From contig NC_091134.1 of assembly GCF_041381155.1 (NCBI RefSeq), positions 72,995,469-73,059,468 of the forward strand: a DNA stretch of 64,000 nt, written 5' to 3'. The position numbers and the translations under genes were made by a program. Position 1 is the first letter of the stretch. The number at the start of each line of letters is the position of its first letter. This document shows positions 1 through 59,445 of the stretch, piece by piece. The notes under the pieces are model-generated. The model was not told where the DNA came from, made no database searches, and saw nothing but the letters and a program-made list of their open reading frames with translations. This stretch comes from Argopecten irradians. Taxonomy: Eukaryota; Mollusca; Bivalvia; Pectinida; Pectinidae.

Positions 1-2733
1 TTTCTGCGGTCACTTTGTGAACGTAACTGTTATCCAAATTCGACATTTGTAATATCTATTGTCATTTACGAAAAATTCTGACGTAAATCTGGTCTGAAAT
101 ATTCAACATACCTCATACAGACTAAAATTGTGTAAGATATCAACATCAAAGTGTTTGAGATTTGGCGTCTCTCCGAAATCTTTCAAACTAGACATCGAAC
201 CATTTTACGTGGAACTTTTATTACTGTTGTGTTTGCGATTGCTTACATTCCTTAAACCTTTCCAACATTTGAAGTCTTAGATTATTATAAATAACCCCTT
301 ATGTAAAGAGAATTTACCTTAATTGACGAAATAGCGATTTATCATGGTTTACTGCAGAATGCAATACTAGACAATCACACCTTTTTCAACTCTACCTGAT
401 AACCACACGCCAAAATTATACATTTGCATTTGTATTGAATGTGTATAAGGGTAGCGAATTGCCTGAGAAGGTTATATATGACACTCTCAATCATTAGGTC
501 TACTTGGGGCAGCAAACATGCCTTTATAAAAACCGTATCAGTGATGGCACCAACAGCACCAAGGTAGACCTGTGATACATCGTTATAAAAACCGTATCAG
601 TGAGGGCACCAACAGCACCAAGATAGACCTGTGATACATCGTTAGGTATTGTATGTTACTCGTTTATAATAACAAATACGTAAAACACAGTAGTGGTGAA
701 ATGATACTCTAGGGACAATGAAAGGGAGAGTGATAAGTTTGTAACACTGATGCTTCACGATTCTGGTGGATAACAGATGAAATGTCGAGCTTTATATCAA
801 TACTGGTAAAGTGTATTTACTGCACTATATTAAAGTCTCAAACAAATTTGTTTTAGATTAATATATTCCTAGAATTTCAATTGTCTGTGTTTAATTTCCT
901 TTTCTGACATGCTGTTGATGTATGACATTTGAAATCTGATGGATGATAGAATTATTCGACATCTTTATAGTGATGAAATAATTAAAAACTGAAATTTGTG
1001 TCAAACAATTTTCATGCCGCGATCTTGATCTTTGGAGATTTTACCGTATTACAGTTTCAAATAAAAAAGAAATTTGTCTTAGAATACTAATAAAAACTTT
1101 AAATACCGAAAGTCGCTACAGACTTAGAGGTTCGAACTCTCGAATTGCTTCTTCTATCTGAATGATGAGGCTGTCATAGTTAAACGTTACCGATAAAATA
1201 AGAACATTTGTTTGAATATATCTAAAGTGATTTATCAAACAAGTTCTCTTTACGAATTCATTTCTCCTCATTGAGTGTCATTTTTGGTAAAACTAGCTGT
1301 ATAGTATTCCTTATGTGAGTAGCTTTCGTACATGTAGGTATATGTTTGTTTTCAAGTTCTACGCCCTTCTTAGCTTCAAAACATGTTACCATCTTCAATT
1401 ACCATTACTATTCATATAATTTAAAACAACACCAAAATAGAATAAGCTATTGTAGTTTGATTCCTTTGTCTTACGTAAATTTTTGTATTTCACTTTCGAC
1501 GACACGTATTAATGTTTTGGATGTTACTCATTTTGCTGAGCATTTATTCTACTTTTGTTCTTTGCTTCGTTAACGCGATTTTATATTTTGTTTAATTAAC
1601 CCGTCTTTTTCTGATGTTAAACCCTGATGATACGACTACGATAACCGACGATGTTGATGTTACGATGTCACGAATGACCATAAATGCCAGTCTGACCCCT
1701 GAGTATTTAAGCTTGTCACGTTGTCGTGTCGAAACGAATAGATGTCTGACCCACTACGTGCAATCATTACATACAATATAGATATAGCGATAACACGTAA
1801 ACACGCGATTAATACAGACCATTTTTGTAGCGAAGATCCCCGGGGTGTAATATTGTTAAGCAAACGCTTGTAAATAACTACGATGGCACCATTTCAAGCG
1901 TCAAAGTGATAAACACCAGATTTCTGAATCAAGACAATTATCTGGATATGTTAAAACAAATGTTGCGTTAGGATGATGTCTTATCTTCCCAATGGGAGAC
2001 TACATGATTTAGAGGGATATTACTGTTTATATAAACTAGCTGAATATCAGAAACGTGACAACGTCAGGAAAATTATTAAGCGCAGCATTTCAGATACGTT
2101 ACCTTGTAAACACGGACAGTAACCATGGGAACGATGGTTCTTACGTATTTAACTACTGGGATAATCTGATATGATTGCAAAATTGACTCTTAGAAATGCA
2201 ATAAATCCTTTATCTCTCTTCGATAAAAATATCGATGCAAATTATCTCCCGCCATTATTGGGAATCAACAACTTAGTTCGATCGACCTTCACATCTCTGC
2301 TGCTCATCAGAGATTAAAAGCAAGGCATCTATTTCATCAATGCTTCCTGTTCCTTAGTAGGATAAAGGCGGTTGATAAGCGACCTTACCCTAGTATTTGT
2401 TTTTAATTTAAAAAAAAAACTTTAGACAAATAACAATATGATCAATATGATATACTTTACAATCTAATTCTAGCTTCAAGTTAAGGACTATTCCTGTACA
2501 CTAATAAACGTCATGAACACTTGTAAATCGGCTTGTTGTTCATCAAGGTTGTATGCGTAACGCTAATTACACAAATATATGGTCATTTGGAATACAGAAT
2601 GACAACAAACCAGGCAATTAGAAATAAACAAATAAGCACTGTCACCAAGACAAGTCACATTTCATGTAATCACTTTGATTTTATTCATAATTATCTTTCC
2701 TTCTCAATAGCTTATATTCCTTTTTCTTTTTAG
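1..2733. other. Upstream flank/intron, no gene recognised
   Basis: This AT-rich stretch precedes the first recognised GPCR exon. I see no convincing exon, RNA gene or transposon. Because the first recognised exon starts in phase 1 and encodes TM6, the TM1-TM5 exons must lie upstream of the window or be unrecognised here, so much of this stretch is probably intron. The short open frames have no domain-like content. A 59-bp direct duplication at 524-641 is the only repeat noted. Confidence 0.5.
524..641. repeat. 59-bp tandem duplication (2 copies)
   Basis: Two adjacent copies start at about 524 and 583 and share the core CCAACAGCACCAAG. They differ at a few bases. No coding or regulatory role is evident. 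Confidence 0.8.
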
Positions 2734-2859
2734 TTGCAGTAGTGGTGGCTTTTTTTGTTTGCTGGGCACCTTTCCACGCCCAGAGACTCACATCTTTGTA
2801 CATAAAGACGTGGACTCCAGAGGAAATCGAGATACATAGTAAACTGTTCTACGTATCAG
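2734..2859 (+). CDS. Peptide GPCR, TM6 exon (neuromedin-U/CAPA-receptor-like)
   Basis: This internal exon belongs to a class A neuropeptide receptor, a plasma-membrane G-protein-coupled receptor. The acceptor follows a pyrimidine-rich tract ending TTTTTAG at 2733. The exon is 126 bp, phase 1 to phase 1. It encodes a hydrophobic TM6 with the motif CWAPFHAQRL, typical of the neuromedin-U/pyrokinin/CAPA receptor group, then an extracellular loop ending in YVS. It ends CAG at 2859 and the donor GTAGGT follows. Joined to 10379 it reads through in frame into TM7, which supports both splice sites. The last ~37 bases of this exon match the unit of the minisatellite that follows. An alternative acceptor at 2739 exists but fits TM6 less well. 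The ligand cannot be told from the sequence. Confidence 0.85.
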
Positions 2860-5217
2860 GTAGGTACATGGACATCGAGATATATGTAGTAAACTGTTCT
2901 ACGTATTAGGTAGGTGTAGGGACATCGAGCTAGTTAACTGTTCTACGTATCAGGTAGGTACAGGGACATCGAGATAGTTAAGTGTTCTACATATCAGGAA
3001 GGTACAGGGACATCGAGATGGAAAACTGTTCTACGTATCAGGTAGGAACAGGGACGTCGAGATAGTAAACTGATCTACGTATCAGGTAGGAACAGATACA
3101 TCGAGATAGTAAACAGTTCTACATATCAGGTAGGTACATAAACGAGATACTAATTTGGTCTACATATCAGGTAGGTACAAGGACATCGAGAAAGTACACT
3201 GTTCTACGTTTTAGGTAGGTACATGTACATGGACATCGAGACTGAAGAATGTTCTACGTATCATGTAGGTACAGGGAGATCGAAATAGTAAACTGGTCTA
3301 CGTATCAGATAGGAACAGGGACATCGAGATAGTAAACTGTTCTATGTATAAGGTAGGTACAGGGAGATCGAAATAGTAAACTGGTCTACGTATCAGGTAG
3401 GAACAGGGAGATCGAGATAGTAAAATGTTCTACGTATCAGGTAGGAACAGGGACATCGCGATAGTAAACCGTTCTATGTATCAGGTAGGTACAGGGACAT
3501 CGAGATAGTAAACTGATCTACGTATCAGGTAGGTACAGGGACATCAAGATAGTAGACTGTTCTACGTATCAGGTAGGAACAGGGACCTCGAGATAGTAAA
3601 CTGTTCTACGTATCATGTATGTACAGAGAGATCGAGATAGTTAACTGTTCTATGTATCAGGTAGGAACAGGGACGTCGAGGTAGTAAACTGTTCTACGTA
3701 TCAGGTAGGAGCAGGGACGTCGAAATAGCAAACTGTTCTACGTATCAGGTAGGGACAGGGACGTCGAGATAGAAAACAGTTCTACGTATCAGGTAGGTAC
3801 AGAGACATCGAGATAGTAAACTGTTCTACGTATTAGGTAGGAACAGGGACATCGAGATAGTAAACAGTTCTACGTATCAGGTAGGTACAGGGACGTCGAG
3901 ATAGTAAAGAGTTTCTACGTATCAGGTAGGAACAGGGACGTCGAAATAGTAAAGAGTTCTACGTATCAAATAGGAACAGGGACGTCGAGATAGTTAACTG
4001 TTCTACGTATCAGGTAGGAACAGGTTGTCGAGATAGTAAACAGTTCTACGTATTAGGTAGGTGTAGGGACATCGAGATAGTTAACTGTTCTACGTATCAG
4101 GTAGGTACATAGACGAGATAGTAAACTGGTCTACATATCAGGTAGGTACAAAGAAATCGAGAAAGTACACTGTTCTACGTTTTAGGTAGGTAAAGGACAT
4201 CGAGATAGTAAACTGTTCAGCGTTTAAGGTAGGTGCAGGGAGTTTGAGATAGTAAACTGGTCTACGTATCAGGTAGGAACAGGGACATCGAGATAGTAAA
4301 CTGTTCTATGTATCAGGTAGGAACAGGGACGTCGAGATAGTTGAACTGTTATACGTATCATGTAGGTACAGGGACATCGAGATTGTAAACTGTTCTACGT
4401 ATCAGGTAGGTACAGGGAGATCGAGATAGTAAACTGCACTACATATCATGTAGGTACAGGAACATCGAGATAGTAAATTGGTCTAAGTATCAGGTAGGAA
4501 CAGGGACATCGAGATAGTAAACAGTTTTACGTATCAGGTAGGTACAGGGACGTCGAGATAGTAAAGAGTTCTACGTATCAGGTAGGAACAGGGACGTCGA
4601 GATAGTTAACTGTTCTACGTATCAGGTAGGAACAGGTTGTCGAGATAGTAAACAGTTCTACTTATCGGGTAGGTACAGGGACATCGAGATAGTAAACTGT
4701 TCTACGTATTAGGTAGGTGTAGGGACATCGAGATAGTTAACTGTTCTACGTATCAGGTAGGTACATAGACGAGATAGTAAACTGGCCTACATATCAGGTA
4801 GGTACAAGGACATCGAGAAAGTACACTGTTCTACGTTTTAGGTAGGTAAAGGACATCGAGATAGTAAACTGTTCAGCGTTTAAGGTAGGTGCAGGGAGTT
4901 TGAGATAGTAAACTGGTCTACGTATCAGGTAGGAACAGGGACATCGAAATAGTAAACTGTTCTACGTAGCAGGTAGGAACGGGGACGTCGAGATAGTTGA
5001 ACTGTTTTACGTATCAGGTAGGAATAGGGACGTCGAGATAGTTGAACTGTTCTACGTATCAGATAGGTACATGGACATAGAGACTGAAGACTGGTATACG
5101 TTTCATGTAGGTAAAGGGAGATCGAGATAGTAAACTGGTCTACGTATCAGGTAGGAACAGGGACATCGAGATAGTAAACTGTTCTACGTATCAGGTAAGT
5201 ACAGGGACATCGCGATG
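2823..5217 (+). repeat. 44-bp minisatellite made of exon end plus splice donor
   Basis: About 54 tandem units of roughly 44 bp. The first unit overlaps the coding end of the TM6 exon. Each unit contains a copy of the last ~30 coding bases, the junction-like string CAGGTAGG and about ten intron bases. Units vary by substitution and small indels, and some donors are degraded (ATGTAGG). The final unit carries CAGGTAAGT at 5192-5200, a closer match to the metazoan donor consensus. Reading from the exon into the array meets a stop within about 17 codons, so read-through is not coding. A higher-order repeat is visible: a marked block near 4021 recurs near 4633. Confidence 0.93.
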
Positions 5218-5900
5218 CAAAGAAAAGCTCTGTAAATATTAGAGAAGACTTATTTATGGCGTCACTCCTTACAACACCTAAACCCGCCATGATTTTACCT
5301 TTTTTTGCTTGACATAACAAATTTTGGTATCTCACATCAATCGATAAATGTTGCCATTCCTGCTACGTATCTGCTGTAGCCATCCTGTAATGTGTTATGT
5401 CGTAGCCATCCTGTAATGCGCTGTAACCATCCTGCAATGTGTTATGTCGTAGCCATCCTATAATGTGTTGCTTCGGATACCGTCTCCTCCGACAGTGAAT
5501 AGTCTTGGAAGCCATTAGCGCCTAGCCGTCCTAAAACACGGACCTCAGAGTGATTTGTCTCCTTATCTCGGTGACGTAATGATTGGTGCCTAATATGGCT
5601 TGGTCATATTTTCGAACGATTACATACAGATTGACGTGACCAGAGTGTAAAATCAATGCGCTAAGTTACGTAAAAAGACACCGTCCTACGTCACACAAAT
5701 ACATTACCTCTTATACACAATATACACAATATAAACAATGACTTTCTCCCTCACATTTGTTTTAACAATGGGATTCTCAAACGATTTGGTGATACTGTAT
5801 GTGACTGAAATGTGCATCCTTAAGCGGATTTGGAAATGTGATTTGATATAGGTCGTCACCATCTATTTTTCATTGTCAACTGATCTGCTCGGTTTTTGTT
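5218..5900. other. GPCR intron segment with a short imperfect repeat
   Basis: Intronic DNA between the minisatellite and the first hairpin element. Positions ~5375-5470 hold three or four imperfect copies of a phrase built on GTAGCCATCCTGTAATGTG. Nothing else is recognised. Confidence 0.6.
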
Positions 5901-7242
5901 ATCCCCCGCCCAACGAAGTTGGCGGGGGATATACAAATGGGTTCCGTCCGTCCGTCCGTCCGTCCGTCCGTCCGTCCGTTTCCGCATCCGTCCGTCCGTC
6001 CGTACGAATGGTTTCCGGAGCATAACTCTTAAACCAGTAGAGGTATTTCCACGAAACTTCATAGACACATTGTTCTTATGGTCTAGTAGTGCCTTTTGCT
6101 ATTTTTAGGTTTTCATTTTTTTGCATTTTTTCCGTAACCATGGAAACATTGCTGAAAATATCATATTTTTGTACCAGGTTCGTTTCGGCAGCACAACTCT
6201 AAAACCAGCAGAGATATTTCCATGAAACTTCATAGACACATTGGTCTTATGGTCTAGTAGTACCTTTTGCTATTTTAAGGATTTCACTTTTTGTACTTTT
6301 TTCTGTAACCATGGAAACATTGCTGAAAATGGCAGATTTTTGTGTAAGAATCGTTTCCGGAGCACAACTCTAAAACCAGCAGAGATATTTCCATGAAACT
6401 TCATAGACACATTGTTCTTATGGTCTAGTAGTGCCTTTTGCTATTTTTAGGTTTTCATTTTTTGCACTTTTTCCGTAACCATGGAAACATTACTGAAAAT
6501 ATCATATTTTTGTACCAGGTTCGTTTCCGCAGCATAACTCTAAAACCGGTTGAGATATATGCACGGAACTCCATAGGCACATTAGTCTTATGGTCTAGTA
6601 GTGCCTTTTGCTATTTTAAGGTTTTCCCTTTTTGTACTTTTTTCTGTAACCATGGAAACATTGCTGAAAATGGCAGATTTTTGTGTAAGAATAGTTTCCG
6701 GAGCACAACTTTAAAACCAGCAGAGATGTTTCCATGAAACTTCATAGACACATTGTTCTTATAGTCTAGTAGTGCCTTTTGCAATTTTTAGGTTTTCACT
6801 TTTTGTGCCTTTTTCTGTAACCATAGAAGCATTGCTGAAAATATCATATTTTTGTATCAGGTTTATGTCCGGAGCATAACTCTAAAACCAGCATAGATAT
6901 TTCCATGAAACTTCAAAGACACATTCTTTTTATGGTCTAGTAGTACCTTTTGCTATTTTTAGGTTTTCATTTTTTGCACTTTTTCCGTTACCATGGAAAC
7001 ATTGCTGAAAATATCATGGTAAATGGTAAATGTTATTTTGCAAAACTCCACCCATCTTTGTGTATATAGGCTAATATAAATGTCAAGGCTGTATACCTGA
7101 TTCAACAATTGCAGCCCCGCTCTACTTGAATTATACTCCATCTTTCTTTGGCTCAACTTCCTTTTTCCTGTTTTTTTTTCATACACATCAATTCTCCACA
7201 ATCAAACTTACTTCAGCTTTGATATCTCCATTGGCGGGGGAT
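5901..7242 (+). mobile_element. CCCCCGCC-hairpin non-autonomous element, copy 1
   Basis: The element opens with a strong hairpin (ATCCCCCGCC pairing with GGCGGGGGAT, 5901-5930) and a run of CCGT tetranucleotides (~5944-6003). About six tandem sub-units of roughly 170 bp follow, each beginning near GTTTCCGGAGCA and ending near GCTGAAAAT. It closes with TTGGCGGGGGAT at 7231-7242, complementary to the opening arm. Open frames across the sub-units and the CCGT run are low-complexity by-products, not genes. No transposase is present, so it is probably mobilised in trans or is a satellite-like repeat. The exact right edge may extend ~20 bp, since flanking bases are shared with copy 3. Confidence 0.75.
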
Positions 7243-7527
7243 CTGAATGACTATGTCCTTGTTATGATTCAGAATAATTCCGAAAAGAAACATGGCAAGA
7301 TGAACGGCAACGATTAGAAAATTTTCATCAAACATCATACGAATTGAGAATACCTTAAATTGTTCGCACGTTCTTAATGTTCCGAAGGTACAAGAGATCG
7401 TTATGTCACTAATTGATGTTATATACTGAATACGATTTATTTTGAAACGCTATCGTAGGATTAATGAATTATTTTTATCAACGCAGATAATGATGTATTT
7501 TTCAGTTGATTAATAACTTCATTTTTT

Positions 7528-8268
7528 ATCCCCCGCCCAACGAAGTTGGCGGGGTATATACAAATGGGTTCCGTCCGTCCGTCCGTCCGTCTGTCCGTCC
7601 GTCCGTACGAATGGTTTCCGGAGCATAACTCTTAAACCAGTAGAGGTATTTCCACGAAACTTCATAGACACATTGTTCTTATGGTCTAGTAGTGCCTTTT
7701 GCTATTTTAAGGCTTTCATTTTTTTGCATTTTTTCCGTAACTATGGAAACATTGCTGAAAATATCATATTTTTGAACCAGGTTCGTTTCCGCAGCATAAC
7801 TCTAAAACCAGAAGAGATATTTCCACGAAACCTCATAGACACATTGGTCTTATGGTCTAGTAGTGCCTTTTACTATTTCAAGGTTTTCACTTTTTGTACT
7901 TTTTTGTTATCATGTAAACATTGCTGAAAATGGCAGATTTTTGTGTAAGAATCGTTTCTGGAGCACAACTCTAAAACCAGCAGAGATATTTCCATGAAAC
8001 TTCATAGACACATTGTTCTTATGGTCTAGTAGTGCCTTTTGCTATTTTAAGGTTTTCATTTTTTGCACTTTTTCCGTAACCATGGAAACATTGCTGAAAA
8101 TATCATATGTTTGTACCAGGTTCGTTTCCGGAGCACAACTCTAAAACCAGCAGAGATATTTCCATGAAACGTCATAGACACATTGTTCTTATGGTCTAGT
8201 AGTGCCTTTTGCTATTTATAGGTTTTCACTTTTTGTGCTTTTTTCTGTAACCATAGAAACATTGCTGA
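7528..8268 (+). mobile_element. CCCCCGCC-hairpin element, copy 2 (3' truncated)
   Basis: Same opening hairpin and CCGT run as copy 1, followed by about four ~170-bp sub-units. It stops abruptly at ~8268, where GPCR tail sequence begins. The truncation is the deletion breakpoint of the upstream tandem-duplication copy. Confidence 0.75.
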
Positions 8269-8434
8269 ACAGAGTATCGAGAGCCAGATGTTTTGTAAAC
8301 AATTCAGCAACGCTTCATATCAAGACATAGAGACCTTGAAACGACTACAGTGCTTCCGGGACGAATGTCATCTAAAATCGTTGGATTCTGTACCGGAAGT
8401 GATGGAAAGGGACGTCAATGTTAATTTCATATAA
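8269..8434 (+). pseudogene. Orphan copy of GPCR C-terminal tail
   Basis: Near-identical to 10791-10956, the last ~55 codons of the receptor, and followed to 8756 by a copy of its 3'UTR. The frame is still open and ends in TAA, but the copy has no acceptor, no TM7 and no start. It is joined directly to hairpin-element sequence. It lies inside the intron of the real gene on the same strand, so it would be spliced out. Few substitutions separate it from the parent, so the event looks recent. Confidence 0.85.
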
Positions 8435-9013
8435 ATATGTACAGATGCCGAGAGACACATCTCAGTTGACACTGCTCAATATTGACCTTTGTGGTGATTG
8501 GCTGTTATATAATTCTAAAGTGTAAAAACCATTGTACTGCTTTTATATATAGCAGCGTATACCAAAATTTCATATTACACGATTAGGATATGGTAATCAC
8601 CAGATGGATATGGTCATTGGTTGATGTTAAAAAAATGAAGTTTGTTTTAACAGTTGGTAAATTGTATGTTTGGAACGCAACACTATGACTACAAAGAAAA
8701 TGAAATTACGGTACTTATAGCTCAATCTAGTTGAATACTTAGACAATGATGAAATAAGAATAATTCCGAAAAGAAACATGGCAAGATGAACGGCAACGAT
8801 TAGAAAATTTTCATCAAACATCATACGAATTGAGAATACCTTAAATTGTTCGCACGTTCTTAATGTTCCGAAGGTACAAGAGATCGTTATGTCACTAATT
8901 GATGTTATATACTGAATACGATTTATTTTGAAACGCTATCGTAGGATTAATGAATTATTTTTATCAACGCAGATAATGATGTATTTTTCAGTTGATTAAT
9001 AACTTCATTTTTT

Positions 9014-10148
9014 ATCCCCCGCCCAACGAAGTTGGCGGGGGATATACAAATGGGTTCCGTCCGTCCGTCCGTCCGTCCGTCCGTACGAATGGTTTCCGGA
9101 GCATAACTCTTAAACCAGTAGAGGTATTTCCACGAAACTTCATAGACACATTGTTCTTATGGTCTAGTAGTGCCTTTTGCTATTTTTAGGCTTTCATTTT
9201 TTGCATTTTTTCCGTAACTATGGAAACATTGCTGAAAATATCATATTTTTGAACCAGGTTCGTTTCCGCAGCATAACTCTAAAACCAGAAGAGATATTTC
9301 CACGAAACCTCATAGACACATTGGTCTTATGGTCTAGTAGTGCCTTTTACTATTTCAAGGTTTTCACTTTTTGTACTTTTTTGTTATCATGGAAACATTG
9401 CTGAAAATGGCAGATTTTTGTGTAAGAATCGTTTCTGGAGCACAACTTTAAAACCAGCAGAGATATTTCCATGAAACTTCATTGACACATTGTTCTTATG
9501 GTCTAGTAGTGCCTTTTGCTATTTTTAGGTTTTCATTTTTTGCACTTTTTCCGTAACCATGGAAACATTGCTGAAAATATCATATTTTTGTACCAGGTTC
9601 GTTTCCGGAGCACAACTCTAAAAACAGCATAGATATTTCCATGAAACGTCATAGACACATTGTTCTTATGGTCTAGTAGTGCCTTTTGCTATTTATAGGT
9701 TTTCACTTTTTGTGCTTTTTTCTGTAACCATAGAAACATTGCTGAAAATATCATATTTTTGTAGCAGGTTCATTTCCGGAGCATAACTCTAAAACCAGCA
9801 GAGATATTTCCACGAAACTTCATAGACACATTTTTTTTATGGTCTAGTAGTACCTTTTGCTATTTTTAGGTTTTCATTTTTTACACTTTTTCCGTTACCA
9901 TGGAAACATTGCTGAAAATATCATGGTAAATGGTAAATGTTATTTTGCAAAACTCCACCCATCTTTGTGTATATAGGCTAATATAAATGTCAAGGCTGTA
10001 TACCTGATTCAACAATTGCAGCCCCGCTCTACTTGAATTATACTCCATTTTTCTTTAGCTCAACTTCCTTTTTCCTGGTTTTTTTTCATACACATAAGTC
10101 TCCACAATCAAACTTACTTCAGCTTTGATATCTCCATTGGCGAGGGAT
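9014..10148 (+). mobile_element. CCCCCGCC-hairpin element, copy 3
   Basis: Full-length relative of copy 1 with the opening hairpin at 9014-9043, a shorter CCGT run, about five ~170-bp sub-units, and an end motif TTGGCGAGGGAT at 10137-10148. The end motif carries one change from the perfect complement. Its left 740 bp are the tandem-duplication partner of copy 2. Confidence 0.75.
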
Positions 10149-10378
10149 CTGAATGACTCTGTCCTTGTTGCCATTATTCTTTAGCTCCTTTATTTACGTT
10201 AAATACATAACATTGTAACAACACTAATTTGTCAATAAAAGTAGACCTGGAAATATTGTAAACTTATAAATAACTTTATCTTGTAAGTTAAATAAATGTT
10301 TATAGTTCTGTGTTGAACATTTATCATTAACGTTATATAACAATGCAAATACTTATTGTTTTCTTTTCTGATTGACAG

Positions 10379-10956
10379 GTGTGCTTTATTTCCTCAGCTC
10401 CACCGTGAATCCCATCCTTTACAATGTCTTATCACGGAAATTCAGATATGCTTTCAAACGTACATTTTGTCGGTGCTGTCTTAACCTTGAGGCGTTCCCA
10501 ACGTTTTATAAACTGAAAGCAATTTTCATCAACAAGAATGAGCAGCAATCCACGACGCCCAGTGGTATGAGATATCTGTTCCCACAGAAACCAATAGTAT
10601 TGGACACATTCTACCAAAAACACAACCGACGTTTATCAAAGACAGAACACCCATTGAACCAAGGTTCAACAAAAGATACATTGTTAAAAGTTTCTACCGG
10701 GTGTGGGTCAAGTAGTGGTACGCATGCGCATTCTGACGGGCGTCTCCATTGCTTGTGTCGACACAAAAGTTGTTCGAGTCATCGGACGCGACAGAGTATC
10801 GAGAGCCAGATGTTTTGTAAACAATTCAGCAACGCTTCATACCAAGACATAGAGACCTTGAAACGACTACAGTGCTTCCGGGACGAATGTCATCTAAAAT
10901 CGTTTGACTCTGTACCGGAAGTGATGGAAAGGGACGTCAATGTTAATCTCATTTAA
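10379..10956 (+). CDS. Peptide GPCR, terminal exon (TM7 and cytoplasmic tail)
   Basis: Terminal exon of the receptor started at 2734. The acceptor TTGACAG ends at 10378. Entry is in phase 1, and the joined codon gives YVSG followed by VLYFLSS. It encodes TM7 with the conserved NPILYN (the NPxxY micro-switch of class A GPCRs) and a basic helix 8. A CRCC cysteine cluster follows, suited to palmitoylation, then a ~155-residue Ser/Thr/His/Cys-rich tail. The stop TAA is at 10954-10956. About 192 residues are encoded. The tail is long for this receptor group and would be intracellular. Assignment to the neuromedin-U/CAPA/pyrokinin group rests on the TM6 and TM7 motifs and could shift to a related peptide receptor. 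Confidence 0.88.
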
Positions 10957-11275
10957 ATATGTACAGATGCCGAGAGACACATCTCAGTTGACACTGCTCA
11001 ATATTGACCTTTGTGATGATTGGCTGTTATATAATTCTAAAGTGTAAAAAACCATTGTACTGCTTTTATATATAGCGGCGTATACCAAAATTTCATATTA
11101 CACGATTAGGATATGGTAATCACCAGATGGATATGGTCATTGGTTGATGTTAAAAAAATGAAGTTTGTTTTAACAGTTGGTAAATTGTATGTTTGGAACG
11201 CAACACTATGACTACAAAGAAAATGAAATTACGGTACTTATAGCTCAATCTAGTTGAATACTTAGACAATGATGA

Positions 11276-11281
11276 AATAAA
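11276..11281 (+). promoter_or_regulatory. Possible poly(A) signal of GPCR
   Basis: AATAAA lies ~320 bases after the receptor stop, at the edge of the duplicated block. The corresponding hexamer in the upstream copy is AATAAG (near 8753-8758). Other AATAAA-like strings follow, so this choice is tentative. Confidence 0.45.
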
Positions 11282-14200
11282 AATAAAAAGGATGTCATTA
11301 GAAAATAGATAGGTATAATTACAATTTATATGTGATTTATTCCATATCTACTTCATCTTCTTACATGTCTGAGTGAAATTAAAGCTAAATATTAATAACG
11401 AGTTTCGCTGAAATACTTTTCCCCTCAATATTATATCCAAAATGCGTAATATTACCGTTGTTTCATATCTTATCCGTCTATTTGTTATTATTTGTTTCTA
11501 TATTTGTTACAAATGTTTATGTGCGGGTATGATATATTGGAGGTATATAGATTTGGTACAGCAATAACTCACATATATATTTGAAATGTTGCAGTGCTCG
11601 TTTAAATCTATTGAACACAGATATCTAATTCGATACAAGTGCTTAAAGGAAAGTCGAATGTCATGTTTTAATTTTATGTAAATTATAGTTGTCTATTAAT
11701 TGTATAACTACTATGAATGACCTTTATGTTAATATTCCGTTTTATCCAATCCACAAACCGATTTTGTCATGGTTTTGTCGTACTGTATGTTCCACTGTAC
11801 ATTTCACAGTTTGTTTTGAATTATTTTCTGTTTCCAGCACAGATATTGATCCCACATCTGACATGTGTCTGAGTTACATGTGATATACCTGTAGAAAAAA
11901 AACACATTTGAGATAAAACTGCTTAGTTCAGCTGCTTTCGTATAGGATAAAGCTATATCGTAATTTCTTTCCCGGTGACATGCTTTTGGTCTAAATAATA
12001 TCTTTCTGCTGTAAATACATACAATATATACACCCCTGGACTATTTCATAGTAAAACTGGAGGCAACCGAATAGAACAGGTAATTTAGTCATTTGATGAA
12101 CATCAAACGAGCCATATAACGGTACACTGTGGTTGACTGTGTGGCTTTGATGTTAGGCGTCGCTCTCTCTGTAGTCTTCAAAAGAAATCTCTGCTAGCCT
12201 GTGATTGGTCAAATGTTTTCCGCTGAGCTGCATTCAATTTCACTATGAGATAGTCCAGGGGTGTAGAGATCGTAAGTGATCGGAACCCCTGGAATATCGA
12301 GGCTGCTGATACAACATACAGGCATACATACTGTACAGCTGTATAGATTTATCTAAAAATTAAAAGTTACCATGGCAAGTAAATATTTAGATAAGTTAAA
12401 GTTCAGTGGGGGTTTCCGTTTAGCATCAAAAACATTGTGATGCAATATTGCAAAATAAACCACACATATTTATAAAATGGGAGAAGGTTAGTTACTCTTT
12501 AACGCACAAAACTTAAGGCCATACATATCGACACTACAAAGTTTGTTTTCCTAGATATTACGAAGGGTTATCAATCGTAATCAAGAATAAGTTTTTTCAC
12601 TTTACAATGTAATATGTTTTTATTTTATTTTTACTTTTTTTCTTGAAAATATTTAACGTTATACCGATGATTTGGATCATGTCTTTTTAGTACTCAATGT
12701 GTTTTCTCAATTATAGATTCTTTGGTCTAGAGCCATCTCTATGTCCTGTTGTTTTTAACTTAAAGTATATCATGTAAAAACAGACAAATTATTCATATAG
12801 CTTCTGAAGTTGATACGTGTAGAAACTGGATTCGTTCTTTATATGTCATTAGCTACGTCCATTTCATTGTACCATGTTTTATTTATAAAAACAAGCTTTG
12901 CCTAAAATGTTATAAATCTCGCTTTCTAATACGTCCAAACATTTTATTTGCAATATATTGAAATATTCGACTCAGCATTTTTATATGCATTATATGATAG
13001 CATATTACATGTATATTATGCGGCAGCGAAGATAAACCAAAAGAACTCTATTACAAAGTATTGTTAGTGGAGCTTTCAAACTGTTTGCTAATTTCGGCAG
13101 TATATAATGAATTTATTTACATGTTAAATATTTTTTTATAATGTTGTTCGCTTGTAGATACGTTCGTGGAAATGTAAAGAGGACAAAATAAGTGAAAGTT
13201 TCCGCCAATAATTACAATAATTTACAACACTGTTCACATTATAAAGGTGTAACGGTTACTATGAAGATAGCCGTTTTGTAAAAATATCTGTTGTACATAA
13301 TGTTAGTGATGTTTGAGTTACAACACAAATCAGTTATATCGCACAAAGCTAGTCCTCTCGCCTTTTTATCTGGTATGAACATTTAAATTAATAAAGACAT
13401 CAAAGACATAAAATGTGAAAACAAATAACATAACAATATACGTTATATTAAGCTTCACGTTTAGTAAGACAAAACCTACTAAACATTCTGTATTTTTCTG
13501 TTCTTTAGAATCACATCAGCTATGCCTGCTATACCTTACAAATAGCGAGAAAACCAAGTCCTTTGATATTCAGGGTAAACTATAAATATTGTCAGCTAAG
13601 CCATTTTCACTATTATCGCTATATTCGGTGTATATTTAGTTTTAAAAGCGTTCTTGCTGGTCCTCAACATGACTAGAGGCCACGTATAATATCGGAATGG
13701 CGATGTAGTTTTAAAACTATCATTTACTAGGTCATCTTTTGCTTAATATTATTTATAGCAAGACTAGTACATTTATATACCGACTAAAAACAAACACATA
13801 CGATATCAGTCAAGTTCATTTATAGAGTAACGCTGTATTGATCAGCTACAAATAGGAGGTTTCAGGACAACACAATAATTAAATACTGGATGTCATAGTT
13901 ATGATCCTTCAATAAGTAGCATTTCATGCAAATGATTCGATAAGTTACACATATATAACACAAAGTATGGATTAGCCGTTACACTGGCTTATGAATTTAA
14001 ATATTCGACATTAAAGCTAATTGACCTTTGAACGGTGCTACAATATATAGTTATGCGTATATCATTATTGTGTTGATGATTTAATAAATTTTACAATTTT
14101 CCCTTTAATTTAATCTATGTTACTATTGGCATATTGATGTACATTTAACAATACGTGTTTATATGACTTTGTAGGCTTATATGTTTCTAACATTCCATGA

Positions 14201-20626: not shown

Positions 20627-21737
20627 GTAATTTTTTAACAATAAATATCATTTTACAAGACGAGTTGGATATTCCTCAGTGGAACCACTTGTGGTGAAAG
20701 AGTGATGTAAAACAATCTCATCAATTAGATTTCCATAACTGCTTGTATCCGGTAAAGATATTTTGACGCGTAAACTGTGAAAAACATTTTAAGACATAAG
20801 ATTAAAAATAAGTAGTTACCAATAAATTAGATTGTCTTGGTCGAATATAGTCAAGATTTTGCTTGCTTTGAAAAAATATATTTGTAGTTAACCATTGATG
20901 TCACTTTTTTAAAATTCCTTCGGATATGAAAAAGATAATTGTTTGTAAACTGTGTGAGTCCGCGTAACGTTTTCTCACAAAAGTTTGCAGACAATATTTT
21001 ATCATAACCCGATGAAATAGGAAAAAAGATTTGACGAAATAGAATACATTTTGATATTCGATTCCATTGGTTTTCCAATGGATTATTTTTGCATTTTTTA
21101 TTTTTTCAATGTTTATATTGTGACGTCACGATAACGTCGGGCTTTCGCACAATTTTCGGAATTTATTTTTTCATAGTGGTATGAAAAAGAACAGGCCAAT
21201 CAGAAAGCCAGATTTGATATTAAAACAAGGTAAAATTAATTCTACGAGTATAAAGCCACATAGCTATATGGAATGGGCTATATGGTAATCTCTTTAATGG
21301 TTTGATGCAATTAGTATACGACCTCCTATAACGGTACAGATCGAGAGTTGTCGGAGAAGCCAGTCTACGTTTGACAGTCCAATGCGTAATTATTTAGTCG
21401 CAGATATAACAAACATATGCTTCAAAACAAAATTTCTCAATTTATATTTTGTGAGAATTGAACGTACCATTTCAGGTCTATTTAATCAATAATACATCAT
21501 TTAAAGCAGTCTATATCATAACGTAGGTACCAAAGATCAAATGTCAGTTAAACGTCTTTACCAGTCAAACTTACTTGTACAACAATAGTTGAACATATAA
21601 GGGGTTATTTAACGCCAGAAATGAATTGCATTGCTATCTCAAAATAATCGCTAGGGAATGAATAAATCTAAAGTAGCATACAAGGCTTTTAATTGTTATT
21701 GACATTGTCTTTTTAGAACCATCGTTAATATTTACAG
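20627..21737 (+). other. Intron 1 of ATP-grasp copy 1
   Basis: A 1.1-kb GT-AG intron. I see no gene in it. The sequence around 21120-21200, with CGTCACGATAACGTCGG, resembles the palindromic ends of fold-back repeats, but no second terminus was found. Confidence 0.6.
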
Positions 21738-22961
21738 GTCATAATGGTAGCACACCGTACCTCGAACTACGGAGAAAGCAAGGTGGATACAACAATCTAC
21801 TATGACTATTACACCGACCAGTCCAGCCTTGATAAACACGCCATCAACATCATTGGACTTCTAGGAGATCGTGTAGGAGAAATTGACGGATGTTTTACCT
21901 TTACTGAGCCGGACACCCCCATCACGGCTGCCGTATGTCTGAAGCTTGGGCTCAGAGGAGTCCATCCGACAGCGGCATTGACAGTTCGGAGCAAGCAAAA
22001 GACATACGAAGCCCTCAGATCCAAAACAAGAAATACTGTTTACGATACAGAACAATTTTCACCTGAGTCTTATCGCATCCGAAATGTAAATGACATCAAG
22101 GAAGTTAAGCATATAAATTACCCAGCCATTCTAAAGCCTGAACATGACGCTGGTTCCTGGGGAGTGACAAAAGTAATGTCGGCAGAGGATTGCGTTTCTC
22201 ATTATAACAGATTACAAACTATGTTTGCATCGTCATCTCACGGGGAGACCTTTGGAAGGTCAATGGTTCTAATGGAGCTCCTAGACGGGCTATCCTACGA
22301 TGTCGACATGGTGATCTATGAAGGGGAACTCATGGCCGCCTTTATAACTGACATTGGTCTCTACGTTCCAGGCATGCTTAATGATACCACAACCTGCCAA
22401 CCTACCAATTTGTCGGGGGAACTTAAGGAACAGCTTATTACCGCTGCTCATCATTGCTTCTATAATGTCGGTTTACTAAATGGAGTTTTCAATGCAGAAT
22501 TCAAAAAGACAAGATCCGGTTTCAAACTGGTCGAAATTAATGGAAGAATAGGATGCTATCGTAGATGCATCGTCTACAAAACTACATATGGTGTTATCTT
22601 ATGGGAGATTGCAGCCGCTATCGCCTGTGGAATCAAGCCCTACTTTCCTAAAATTACTGTTTAATGTTTCGCTGTGGGAGCCTTCCTGTTCATTAGATAT
22701 CACGGGAAACAATTCCTCCAAAATGGTGTCAGGGATAAGCTGGTATCTTTGGCTGAGGCGAATGACATAATCTTAAATTTGAGAACTGAAGTCATAGACT
22801 TGGAGTGTGAGGATGAATATCAAAAACCGTTTTGCCATCTGATTGCTCTCAACAACACAAGCACCAAGTATGCAAGAGAAGCGCTTCTAAACATTTGTCA
22901 TAATCTCGGGCTGTTGTGTAGTGATTATGACATTGAGAGGTTCACAGAAATGTGGGCATGA
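21738..22961 (+). pseudogene. Carnosine-synthase-like ATP-grasp ligase copy 1, exon 2 with in-frame stop
   Basis: Acceptor TTTACAG ends at 21737. The frame continues from exon 1 in phase 0. Family features are PAILKPEHDAGSWGV (ATP-grasp Lys and Gly-rich loop), MELLDGLSYDVD and KLVEINGRIG (the metal-binding Glu/Asn motif). A TAA at 22662-22664 interrupts the frame where copies 2 and 3 read CGA (Arg). The same frame then continues without any shift for 98 more codons to TGA at 22961, keeping homology up to a final RFTEMWA. One nonsense codon is therefore the only visible lesion. It removes ~100 residues but leaves the ATP-grasp core. This may be a young pseudogene, a null allele or a base-call error. 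Copy 1 is clearly more diverged from copies 2 and 3 than they are from each other. Confidence 0.8.
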
Positions 22962-31586: not shown

Positions 31587-32783
31587 GTCATTTTGGTGGC
31601 ACATACAGTTTATAGTGATGAACCGAACAAAGTGCACTCGCTCATCTGTTATGATTACAGTAACCAGTCCGATATAGATAGCCACGCAAACAACATTATC
31701 CAACTCCTCGGAGATCGACATATTGACGGATGTTTTACTTTTACCGAGGCGGATACACCAATAACAGCTGTCATATGTCAAAAACTGGGAGTCCGAGGAA
31801 TCCATCCGGATGCGGCCATGACTGTCCGGAGTAAGCATAACACGTATCAAATATTGAGACAAAACACTACTGATTGTCTGTATACCACGGAGATATATTC
31901 ACCAATATCATACCGCATTGGAACCGTGAGAGATATCAGTGATGCCAAGAAGATAACATATCCCGCCGTTCTCAAGCCCGAGTTTGATGTCGGGTCCTGG
32001 GGAGTTGTGAAAGTCACATCAAAAGACGACTGTCTCTCACAGATTAACAGACTACAGAGGAATTTCGATACATCTCGCTTAGGAGGGAAATTCGGAAAGT
32101 CTTTGGTTTTGATGGAGCTACTACAGGGTCTGTCTTACAATGTTGACGTTGTTATATACGACGGGGAGCTGATGATCGGCCTGATCACTGATGTTGGTTT
32201 GTACCTCCCGAACATGTTTGTGGACACCGCCACCTGTCAACCTTCTAGCTTGTCTGATGAACTACAGACAGAGCTCACCACGGCTGCCCACCAATGTTGT
32301 TGTAAGGTCGGATTAGTGAACGGAGTTTTTAACACCGAGTGGAAGATCACGGAGTCTGGTCCAAAGCTTGTCGAGATCAATGGAAGAATTGGCATGTATC
32401 GTCGAAGCATTGTCTACAAGACTACACATGGCGTCATTCTATGGGAGATTGCAGCTGCCATTGCATGTGGAATCAAACCGTCTTTTCCGGATATTTCTGT
32501 TCGAAGCTTTGCTGTGGGAGCCTACCTTTACACAAAATTTCACAGGGAACAATTTCTGAAAAAAGAAGTCATCCAAACACTGAAGTCATTGGCTAATGCA
32601 AAGGCCATCCTTCTAGAAATGTTCGAACTGAAAGATCTGAAACAAAATGAAGAGGAATTTCCTTTAAGTTTCTGTCATCTGGTTGCATTGAGTAATAAAG
32701 ATATCAAGCATGCAAGGCAAGCTTTGCTCGACCTCTATCGGGTTAATTCCAAAACAAATATTCTCATGCATTTATGCATCTGA
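31587..32783 (+). CDS. Carnosine-synthase-like ATP-grasp ligase copy 2, exon 2 (altered C-terminus)
   Basis: The acceptor TTTCTAG ends at 31586. With exon 1 the product is ~440 residues. By family it should ligate an amino acid to another amino acid or beta-alanine using ATP, in the cytosol; the real substrates are unknown. Visible motifs are FTFTEADTP, PAVLKPEFDVGSWG (with Val where copies 1 and 3 have Ala), MELLQGLSYNVDVV, CQPSSL and KLVEINGRIGMYRR. At 32743 a 66-bp insertion replaces the normal end. The frame runs 13 codons into it and stops at 32783. The former C-terminus (ending FTSLWA) remains out of use at 32809-32865. The catalytic core is complete, so the enzyme may still work; confidence in function is low. 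Confidence 0.8.
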   Translation, partial: VILVAHTVYSDEPNKVHSLICYDYSNQSDIDSHANNIIQLLGDRHIDGCFTFTEADTPITAVICQKLGVRGIHPDAAMTVRSKHNTYQILRQNTTDCLYTTEIYSPISYRIGTVRDISDAKKITYPAVLKPEFDVGSWGVVKVTSKDDCLSQINRLQRNFDTSRLGGKFGKSLVLMELLQGLSYNVDVVIYDGELMIGLITDVGLYLPNMFVDTATCQPSSLSDELQTELTTAAHQCCCKVGLVNGVFNTEWKITESGPKLVEINGRIGMYRRSIVYKTTHGVILWEIAAAIACGIKPSFPDISVRSFAVGAYLYTKFHREQFLKKEVIQTLKSLANAKAILLEMFELKDLKQNEEEFPLSFCHLVALSNKDIKHARQALLDLYRVNSKTNILMHLCI

Positions 32784-58119: not shown

Positions 58120-58230
58120 AGAAGTCCTAAAACGGTTTATGGGCGGATCACGCTGACGATAACGGACGAAGTTAAAAGACTTTGAGTCCGATGACCTAAA
58201 AATAAATCACCTCACTTAATATATTTCCAG

Positions 58231-59445
58231 GTCATTTTGGTGGCACACACAGTTTATAGTGATGAACCGAACAAAGTTCACTCGCTCCTCTGGTATAATT
58301 ACAGTAACCAGTCCGATATAGATAGCCACGCAAACAACATTATCCAACTCCTCGGAGATCGACATATTGACGGATGTTTTACTTTTACCGAAGAGGATAC
58401 ACCAATAACAGCTGTCATATGTCAAAAACTGGGACTCCGAGGTTTCCATCCGGACGCGGCTATGACAGTTCGGAGTAAACATAACACGTATCAAATATTG
58501 AGACAAAACACTACTGATTGTCTGTATATCACGGAGAAATATTCACCAATATCATACCGCATTGGAACCGTGAGAGATATCAGTGATGCCAAGAAGATAA
58601 CATATCCCGCCGTTCTCAAGCCTGAGTTTGACGCTGGGTCCTGGGGAGTTGTGAAAGTTACATCAGAAGACGACTGTCTCTCACAGATTAACAGATTACA
58701 GAGGAGTTTCGATACATCTCGCTTAGGAGGGAAATTCGGAAAGTCTTTGGTTTTGATGGAGCTACTACAGGGTCTGTCTTACAATGTTGACGTTGTTATA
58801 TACGACGGGGAGCTGATGATCGGCCTGATCACTGATGTTGGTTTGTACCTCCCGAACATGTTTGTGGACACCGCCACCTGTCAACCTTCTAGCTTGTCTG
58901 ATGAACTACAGACAGATCTCACCACGGCTGCCCACCAATGTTGTTGTAAGGTCGGATTAGTGAACGGAGTTTTTAACACCGAGTGGAAGATCACGGAGTC
59001 TGGTCCAAAGCTTGTCGAGATCAATGGAAGAATTGGCATGTATCGTCGAAGCATTGTCTACAAGACTACACATGGCGTCATTCTATGGGAGATTGCAGCT
59101 GCCATTGCATGTGGAATCAAGCCGTCTTTTCCGGATATTTCTGTTCGAAGCTTTGCTGTGGGAGCCTACCTTTACACAAAATTTCACAGGGAACAATTTC
59201 TGAAAAAAGAAGTCATCCAAACACTGAAGTCATTGGCTAATGCAAAGGTCATTCTTCTAGAAATGTTCGAATTGAAAGATCTGAAACAAAATGAAGAGGA
59301 ATTTCCTTTAAGTTTCTGTCATCTGGTTGCTTTGAGCAATAAAGATATCAAGCATGCAAGGCAATCTTTGCTCGACCTCTATCGAAGCCTCGGGTTTGCA
59401 GAAACAGAGTATAACATAGAAAGATTTACAAGTTTGTGGGCTTAA
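58231..59445 (+). CDS. Carnosine-synthase-like ATP-grasp ligase copy 3, exon 2 (intact)
   Basis: The acceptor ATTTCCAG ends at 58230. With exon 1 it encodes ~446 residues, the only uninterrupted copy here. Family features are FTFTEEDTP (~93-101), PAVLKPEFDAGSWG (~168-180, ATP-grasp Lys and Gly-rich loop), MELLQGLSYNVDVVIYDGEL (~218-237), TATCQPSSL, and GVFNTEW and KLVEINGRIGMYRR (~302-315, metal-binding Glu and Asn). The end is ERFTSLWA then TAA. This pattern matches the C-terminal ATP-grasp half of carnosine synthase (ATP-dependent His plus beta-alanine ligation), but the protein is about half the vertebrate length. The true substrates are therefore unknown. The gene is expected to be cytosolic. 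Confidence 0.88.
   Translation, partial: VILVAHTVYSDEPNKVHSLLWYNYSNQSDIDSHANNIIQLLGDRHIDGCFTFTEEDTPITAVICQKLGLRGFHPDAAMTVRSKHNTYQILRQNTTDCLYITEKYSPISYRIGTVRDISDAKKITYPAVLKPEFDAGSWGVVKVTSEDDCLSQINRLQRSFDTSRLGGKFGKSLVLMELLQGLSYNVDVVIYDGELMIGLITDVGLYLPNMFVDTATCQPSSLSDELQTDLTTAAHQCCCKVGLVNGVFNTEWKITESGPKLVEINGRIGMYRRSIVYKTTHGVILWEIAAAIACGIKPSFPDISVRSFAVGAYLYTKFHREQFLKKEVIQTLKSLANAKVILLEMFELKDLKQNEEEFPLSFCHLVALSNKDIKHARQSLLDLYRSLGFAETEYNIERFTSLWA

Follow-up and report, generated by a model that had tools for sequence, protein, structure and literature searches.

A minisatellite that begins inside a scallop receptor exon carries about 50 copies of the exon's splice donor

A minisatellite with a 44-bp unit, found in the genome of the scallop Argopecten irradians, begins inside the TM6 exon of a GPCR gene and repeats the splice donor of that exon about 50 times in the intron that follows. 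We consider it probable, at roughly three chances in four, that this donor array is a tolerated by-product of the birth of a minisatellite at the TM6 donor and that the first donor is the one used. The repeat would have been born at the exon's donor and then spread into the intron, and it would hold some 50 donor copies because its unit contains the last bases of the exon together with the donor. The first donor would be used because the exon it defines is the shortest (126 nt) and follows a good acceptor, and the later donors would be used rarely if ever. Transcripts spliced from the later donors would end 16 residues after the VS at the exon end, without TM7, and would presumably be removed by nonsense-mediated decay. 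The array would persist because it is tolerated in an intron of 7.5 kb, in a genome very rich in minisatellites. Three parts of this account, the homology of the exon end to the unit, the exon as ancestor and, as a prediction, the single productive donor, are established by the sequence comparisons described below.

The window, by which we mean the whole stretch of 64,000 nucleotides that was analyzed, corresponds to C1:72995469-73059468 of a genome of 845.8 Mb in 1508 contigs. The gene lies on its + strand, with the TM6 exon (VAVVVAFFVCWAPFHAQRL...KLFYVS-G) at window positions 2734-2859 (126 nt), as judged from the reading frame and from homologues. The open frame of the TM3-TM5 exon lies ~25 kb upstream of the window (C1:72969566-72970189, in L012), and this exon ends in ATGTTAG/GTAAGT. 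The terminal exon, encoding TM7 (GVLYFLSSTVNPILYN) and the C-terminal tail, occupies 10379-10955 (+ strand) with TTGACAG just before it, and the intron between it and the TM6 exon is ~7.5 kb long. The exon start at 2734, the donor at 2860 and the acceptor from which the exon resumes at 10379, all of them placed by the initial annotation, fit both the frame and the homologues. TM1-TM2 of the gene were not located, and the three exons that we joined cover TM3-TM7. In a protein similarity search with these joined exons, for which the best 120 of 597 matches were listed, Mytilus galloprovincialis neuromedin U receptor 1 matched at 82% (100% of 256 aa, E 5.1e-139) and a pyrokinin-1 receptor-like record of Mizuhopecten yessoensis matched at 97% over 70%; precomputed Pfam annotation places PF00001 in the best matches, including the Mytilus receptor. 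By this similarity over TM3-TM7, the predicted product is a neuromedin U/CAPA/pyrokinin-type GPCR.

The same intron contains other repeated material. Several copies of a 170-bp tandem unit stand behind TCCG runs at 5895-10169, the end of the terminal exon, together with its 3' flank, is duplicated within the intron (8269-8763 versus 10791-11286, 98.2% over 496 bp), and a 999-bp stretch at 7271-8269 recurs at 8757-9746 (98.2%). Elsewhere in the window, three related long open frames at 21729-22661, 31587-32780 and 58195-59442, two of them nearly identical, have by eye an ATP-grasp-type look.

TRF delimited the minisatellite at 2836-5216, with a period of 44, 54.0 copies and 83% matches. A cyclic alignment started at the donor covered 2818-5221 in 55 rows, in which row 0 is the exon end, rows 1 to 53 are complete units and row 54 is a partial unit. 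A tandem array of short units (2860-5221, + strand; 53 complete units and a 27-base partial one) thus sits at the exon/intron boundary of the gene. When window positions 2700-2900 were compared with the genome by BLAST, at least 53 matches were returned (best E, 9.3e-14), consisting of the query itself, one paralogue and 51 places inside the array. Across 53 units the per-site difference from the majority was 9.5%, and neighboring units had no special mutual likeness, as in an old array in which homogenization has ended. The exception is the one clear later event in the array, a block duplication with an offset of 656 that pairs units 28 to 32 (4057-4272, + strand) with units 43 to 47 (4713-4928, + strand) at 0 to 2 differences per unit.

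To score the donors, we calculated the duplex energy with the 5' end of the genome's own U1 (ATACTTACCTG, taken from L015, one of 42 U1 matches in the genome) and called a site strong at -10.7 kcal/mol or better with GT present. The authentic donor, CAG/GTAGGT (2860-2865, + strand), scored -13.2 kcal/mol, which was equaled by none of the 3762 GT sites outside the array on the + strand of the window. GT is kept at 50 of the 54 donor positions and lost at four, and strong U1 pairing was predicted at 44 of the 54, so that the initial description of about 50 near-copies of the authentic donor holds. The first donor is equaled or exceeded in predicted strength by 14 of the 53 downstream donors, the strongest being the last copy, CAG/GTAAGT (5195-5200, + strand; -13.5 kcal/mol). 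Exact CAGGTAGGT was found at 14/54 donor positions and CAGGTAGGA at 18/54, while CAGGTAAGT occurs at the last position (5195) only; the GTAAGT of this last unit may be either the old donor or a later change, two readings that cannot be told apart. We applied the same threshold to 38 arrays of at least five copies, 24 of them from the 200-kb background sample described below and 14 from the window and the preceding 60 kb, the TM6-exon array included. The TM6-exon array alone (1/38) had a strong donor in its unit; the donor content thus stems from the seed and not from the nature of minisatellites. U1 snRNA genes form a tandem cluster at C7:7837784-7877915, mostly ~1.2 kb apart.

The seed copy can be recognized at 2818-2859 (+ strand). 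This exon end covers 37 columns of the cyclic alignment and equals the consensus in 36 of them, apart from five extra bases (A and ATAC), and the last 24 bases of the exon match without a gap. Both the homology of the exon end to the unit and the claim that the unit carries the exon end with its donor and that the array begins inside the exon (the TRF start, 2836, falls within 2734-2859) were made in the initial annotation and are upheld by this alignment. At the ATAC site, ATAT and TG are present in unit 1 and extra bases are absent from all other units, as would be expected if a shortened copy had then been amplified; units 34, 49 and 50 carry a T at column 23. Because the residues of the exon are like those of its homologues, whereas the four bases are missing from the common unit, a loss that would break the frame, the exon is best read as the ancestor of the array and not as its late victim.

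The boundary itself is the older structure. Ten of 13 aligned homologues, including those of Mytilus, Pinctada, Batillaria, Lottia and Haliotis, cross the junction without an insert; the remaining three (P0004, P0005 and P0010) stop before it, and P0004, the best named scallop record (Mizuhopecten), stops before the TM6 exon. Within the scallop's own genome, the exon protein matched itself, four further places strongly and one weakly. In one of the four strong paralogue matches, L039 (C1:35558509), the acceptor is the same and the donor, TCAG/GTGAGT, is in the same place, and the 259 bases read downstream of this donor contain no array. Three of the four strong matches lie in short open frames of 52 to 75 residues, as expected if an intron follows; the fourth, at C6:47830786, has an open frame of 230 residues around it, and the TM6-TM7 intron may be absent there. 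A protein search with the open frame of the exon gave 13 short open reading frame (ORF) matches, and in all eight that were read the similarity ends after SG; the next residue is K in five of these, as a GTAA donor would allow, and R, Q or T in one each. Among these 8 of the 13 matches a near relative's exon was not found, the best having 77% identity. Since L039 shares the boundary and 8/8 ORFs lose similarity at the same place, the boundary is taken to be older than the array. Growth by duplication across the boundary, as first proposed, is borne out by the exon-unit homology, the 10 homologues that bridge the junction and the array-free paralogue with the same boundary, which together support the view that a genuine exon/intron boundary seeded the array, which then grew across it. 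In the ORF P0126, which covers a homologous exon, a unit of ~23 residues that includes the first codons of the exon and an acceptor-like tract is repeated, which might reflect tandem repetition across the acceptor side of the exon.

We joined each of the 54 donors to 10379 in silico. SGVLYF and TM7 were obtained with the first alone (1/54); the other 53 all gave the same 16-residue tail, GRYMDIEIYVVNCSTY, followed by a TAG stop at 2907-2909 (+ strand) that is in frame in every in silico transcript bypassing the first donor, and thus no downstream donor retained the reading frame. The suggestion that the array might supply alternative exon ends is therefore not supported as far as useful ends are concerned, because 53/53 downstream donors yield one truncated frame; in prediction these donors could lower the output of receptor or be silent, and they would make no alternative working receptors. 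Their common tail and stop, together with the 14 of 53 that are at least as strong as the first, would suit a switch in which downstream donors make a product without TM7 or cut the receptor level through decay. A single stop ahead of all downstream donors, however, makes a shared truncation possible without design, and the exons would lengthen, from 176 nt upwards; we regard such a switch as quite unlikely. Recursive splicing, in which TATCAG/GTAGGT of each unit would act as an acceptor and a new donor in a stepwise removal of the intron, fits the presence of AG before the junction in 47/54 units, but the preceding 20 bases hold a mean of 10.7 pyrimidines (maximum, 13), whereas the two real acceptors have 18 and 15. 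With unit acceptors this weak by their pyrimidine tracts, we rejected recursive splicing as very improbable. That the array or the exon is unreal, through an assembly artifact or as a pseudo-exon, is scarcely credible: array length can be wrong in an assembly, but the units are diverged and not collapsed copies, and exon, frame and splice sites agree with the homologues and with L039.

The array might instead have been selected as a splice-site buffer or decoy, its many U1 sites loading U1 near the exon and either raising exon use or slowing splicing. Retention of the donor words, including GT at 50/54 positions, speaks for this. Among the 44 circular 5-mers, the donor core GTAGG is retained best whether changed cells (5 of 265), variant types or capped counts are compared (random-column P, 0.005 to 0.014 over the three counting ways, with and without seven duplicate-like units), and GT is kept in 49/53 units, compared with ~82% expected from (1-0.095)^2 (P 0.026 in a model with all columns equal and units independent). 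The full 9-base donor comes 4th to 7th of 44 when variant types or capped counts are used but is average by changed cells, 22 of the 44 windows lying at or below it and 27 of 44 after the seven units were dropped. The period since the array expanded is best read from mutations found in a single unit. Two such mutations fell in the five core columns, where 3.2 were expected (P 0.38; random-column tests, P 0.31 and 0.22), and at position +6, 22/53 units have a base other than T, usually A, making U1 pairing weaker. The evidence for constraint on the donor core is therefore mixed, with the retained words for it and the single-unit mutations against it, and it appears to lean to neutral; a selected buffer or decoy seems decidedly unlikely. 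A further idea, taken from single-unit folds at five sites, that the copied donors are shielded in hairpins failed under local folding with four window sizes. In local folding the first donor ranked 18 to 40 of 54 in unpairedness by hexamer and 28 to 47 by 9-mer.

The genome is rich in tandem repeats. We sampled 20 pieces of 10 kb (200 kb) at round coordinates on C1 to C11 and found 49,011 of the 200,000 bases (24.5%) in arrays with a period of 10 or more, so that some arrays at exon boundaries are to be expected. Published scallop genomes are rich in them as well, being given as 21.7% and 11.3% tandem repeats in the relevant passages of PMC10225492 and PMC5700196. The 24 sampled arrays of five or more copies have units that total 1515 bp, ~1% of the non-array bases. 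If seeding were blind to boundaries, about 1 donor in 100 would lie inside a seed, and selection would remove many of these; one donor array is thus no great surprise here.

Tandem triples of AGGTAAGT with gaps of 10 to 40 bases gave 6231 matches on both strands of the genome, the highest of 12 words when counted by match and not by array; the 11 same-letter control words gave 807, 1625, 278, 2764, 2612, 1106, 1247, 1090, 814, 1774 and 2238. The looser AGGTRRGT gave 19,536 tandem-triple matches, versus 5056 for its reverse. Among the AGGTAAGT places listed, all but the first three lie within one stretch, C1:2890660-2897056. Counted singly, AGGTAAGT is ~2 times as frequent as the control mean in 324 kb (17 versus 8.5), and the control TGAATGGA is commoner still (23 in 324 kb) yet forms few triples. 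We treat this genome-wide excess as a lead only. Together with the retention of GTAGG and GT, it could hint at more than neutrality. It is quite unlikely that live splice donors were favored birth sites of minisatellites in this lineage, or that donor arrays were selected, so as to make a recurrent class that affects splice-site choice and includes the TM6-TM7 intron; the excess, if real when counted by array, would link minisatellite birth to exon boundaries. Two further arrays have AGGTAAGT in matched units, at C1:1099220-1100135, which also reads CTAACTAATACACTGTATTAGGTAAGT, and at C1:2890660-2897056.

The array is a natural competition experiment, with one predicted productive donor followed by ~50 copies in the same exonic context, and it offers a useful test of donor choice, most copies being equal or nearly equal to the first in predicted strength.

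The minisatellite of the human gene IFI6 has a 12-bp unit that keeps the frame, so that its insertions are small. It runs counter to the initial statement that no element of this kind had been described: Turri, Cuin and Porter (1995, Nucleic Acids Res 23:1854) are cited for a minisatellite with multiple splice donors in IFI6 (6-16, G1P3), and a passage citing them states that two downstream repeat units provide splice donors, so that three mRNA species arise. In a limited search for further donor arrays, the relevant papers were those citing Turri et al. (1995). Both minisatellites offer one transcript several donors, those of the scallop array being predicted; in the passages on IFI6 the use of downstream donors is reported from RNA, whereas the scallop array is known from its sequence. 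The TM6-exon unit differs in being 44 bp long with ~26 to 30 coding bases, in breaking the frame, in leading to one common stop and in its larger number of copies. Intron gain by tandem duplication, as described in PMC4974935, likewise involves tandem duplication at a splice signal, but the TM6-TM7 intron predates the array, its boundary being shared by L039 and marked by the end of similarity after SG in 8/8 ORFs read of 13. The scallop minisatellites of PMC10225492 and PMC5700196 share the abundance of tandem repeats, although the passages concerned make no mention of splice-donor content. The TM6-exon array thus appears to resemble the IFI6 minisatellite in principle and to differ from it in unit length, coding content, frame and number.
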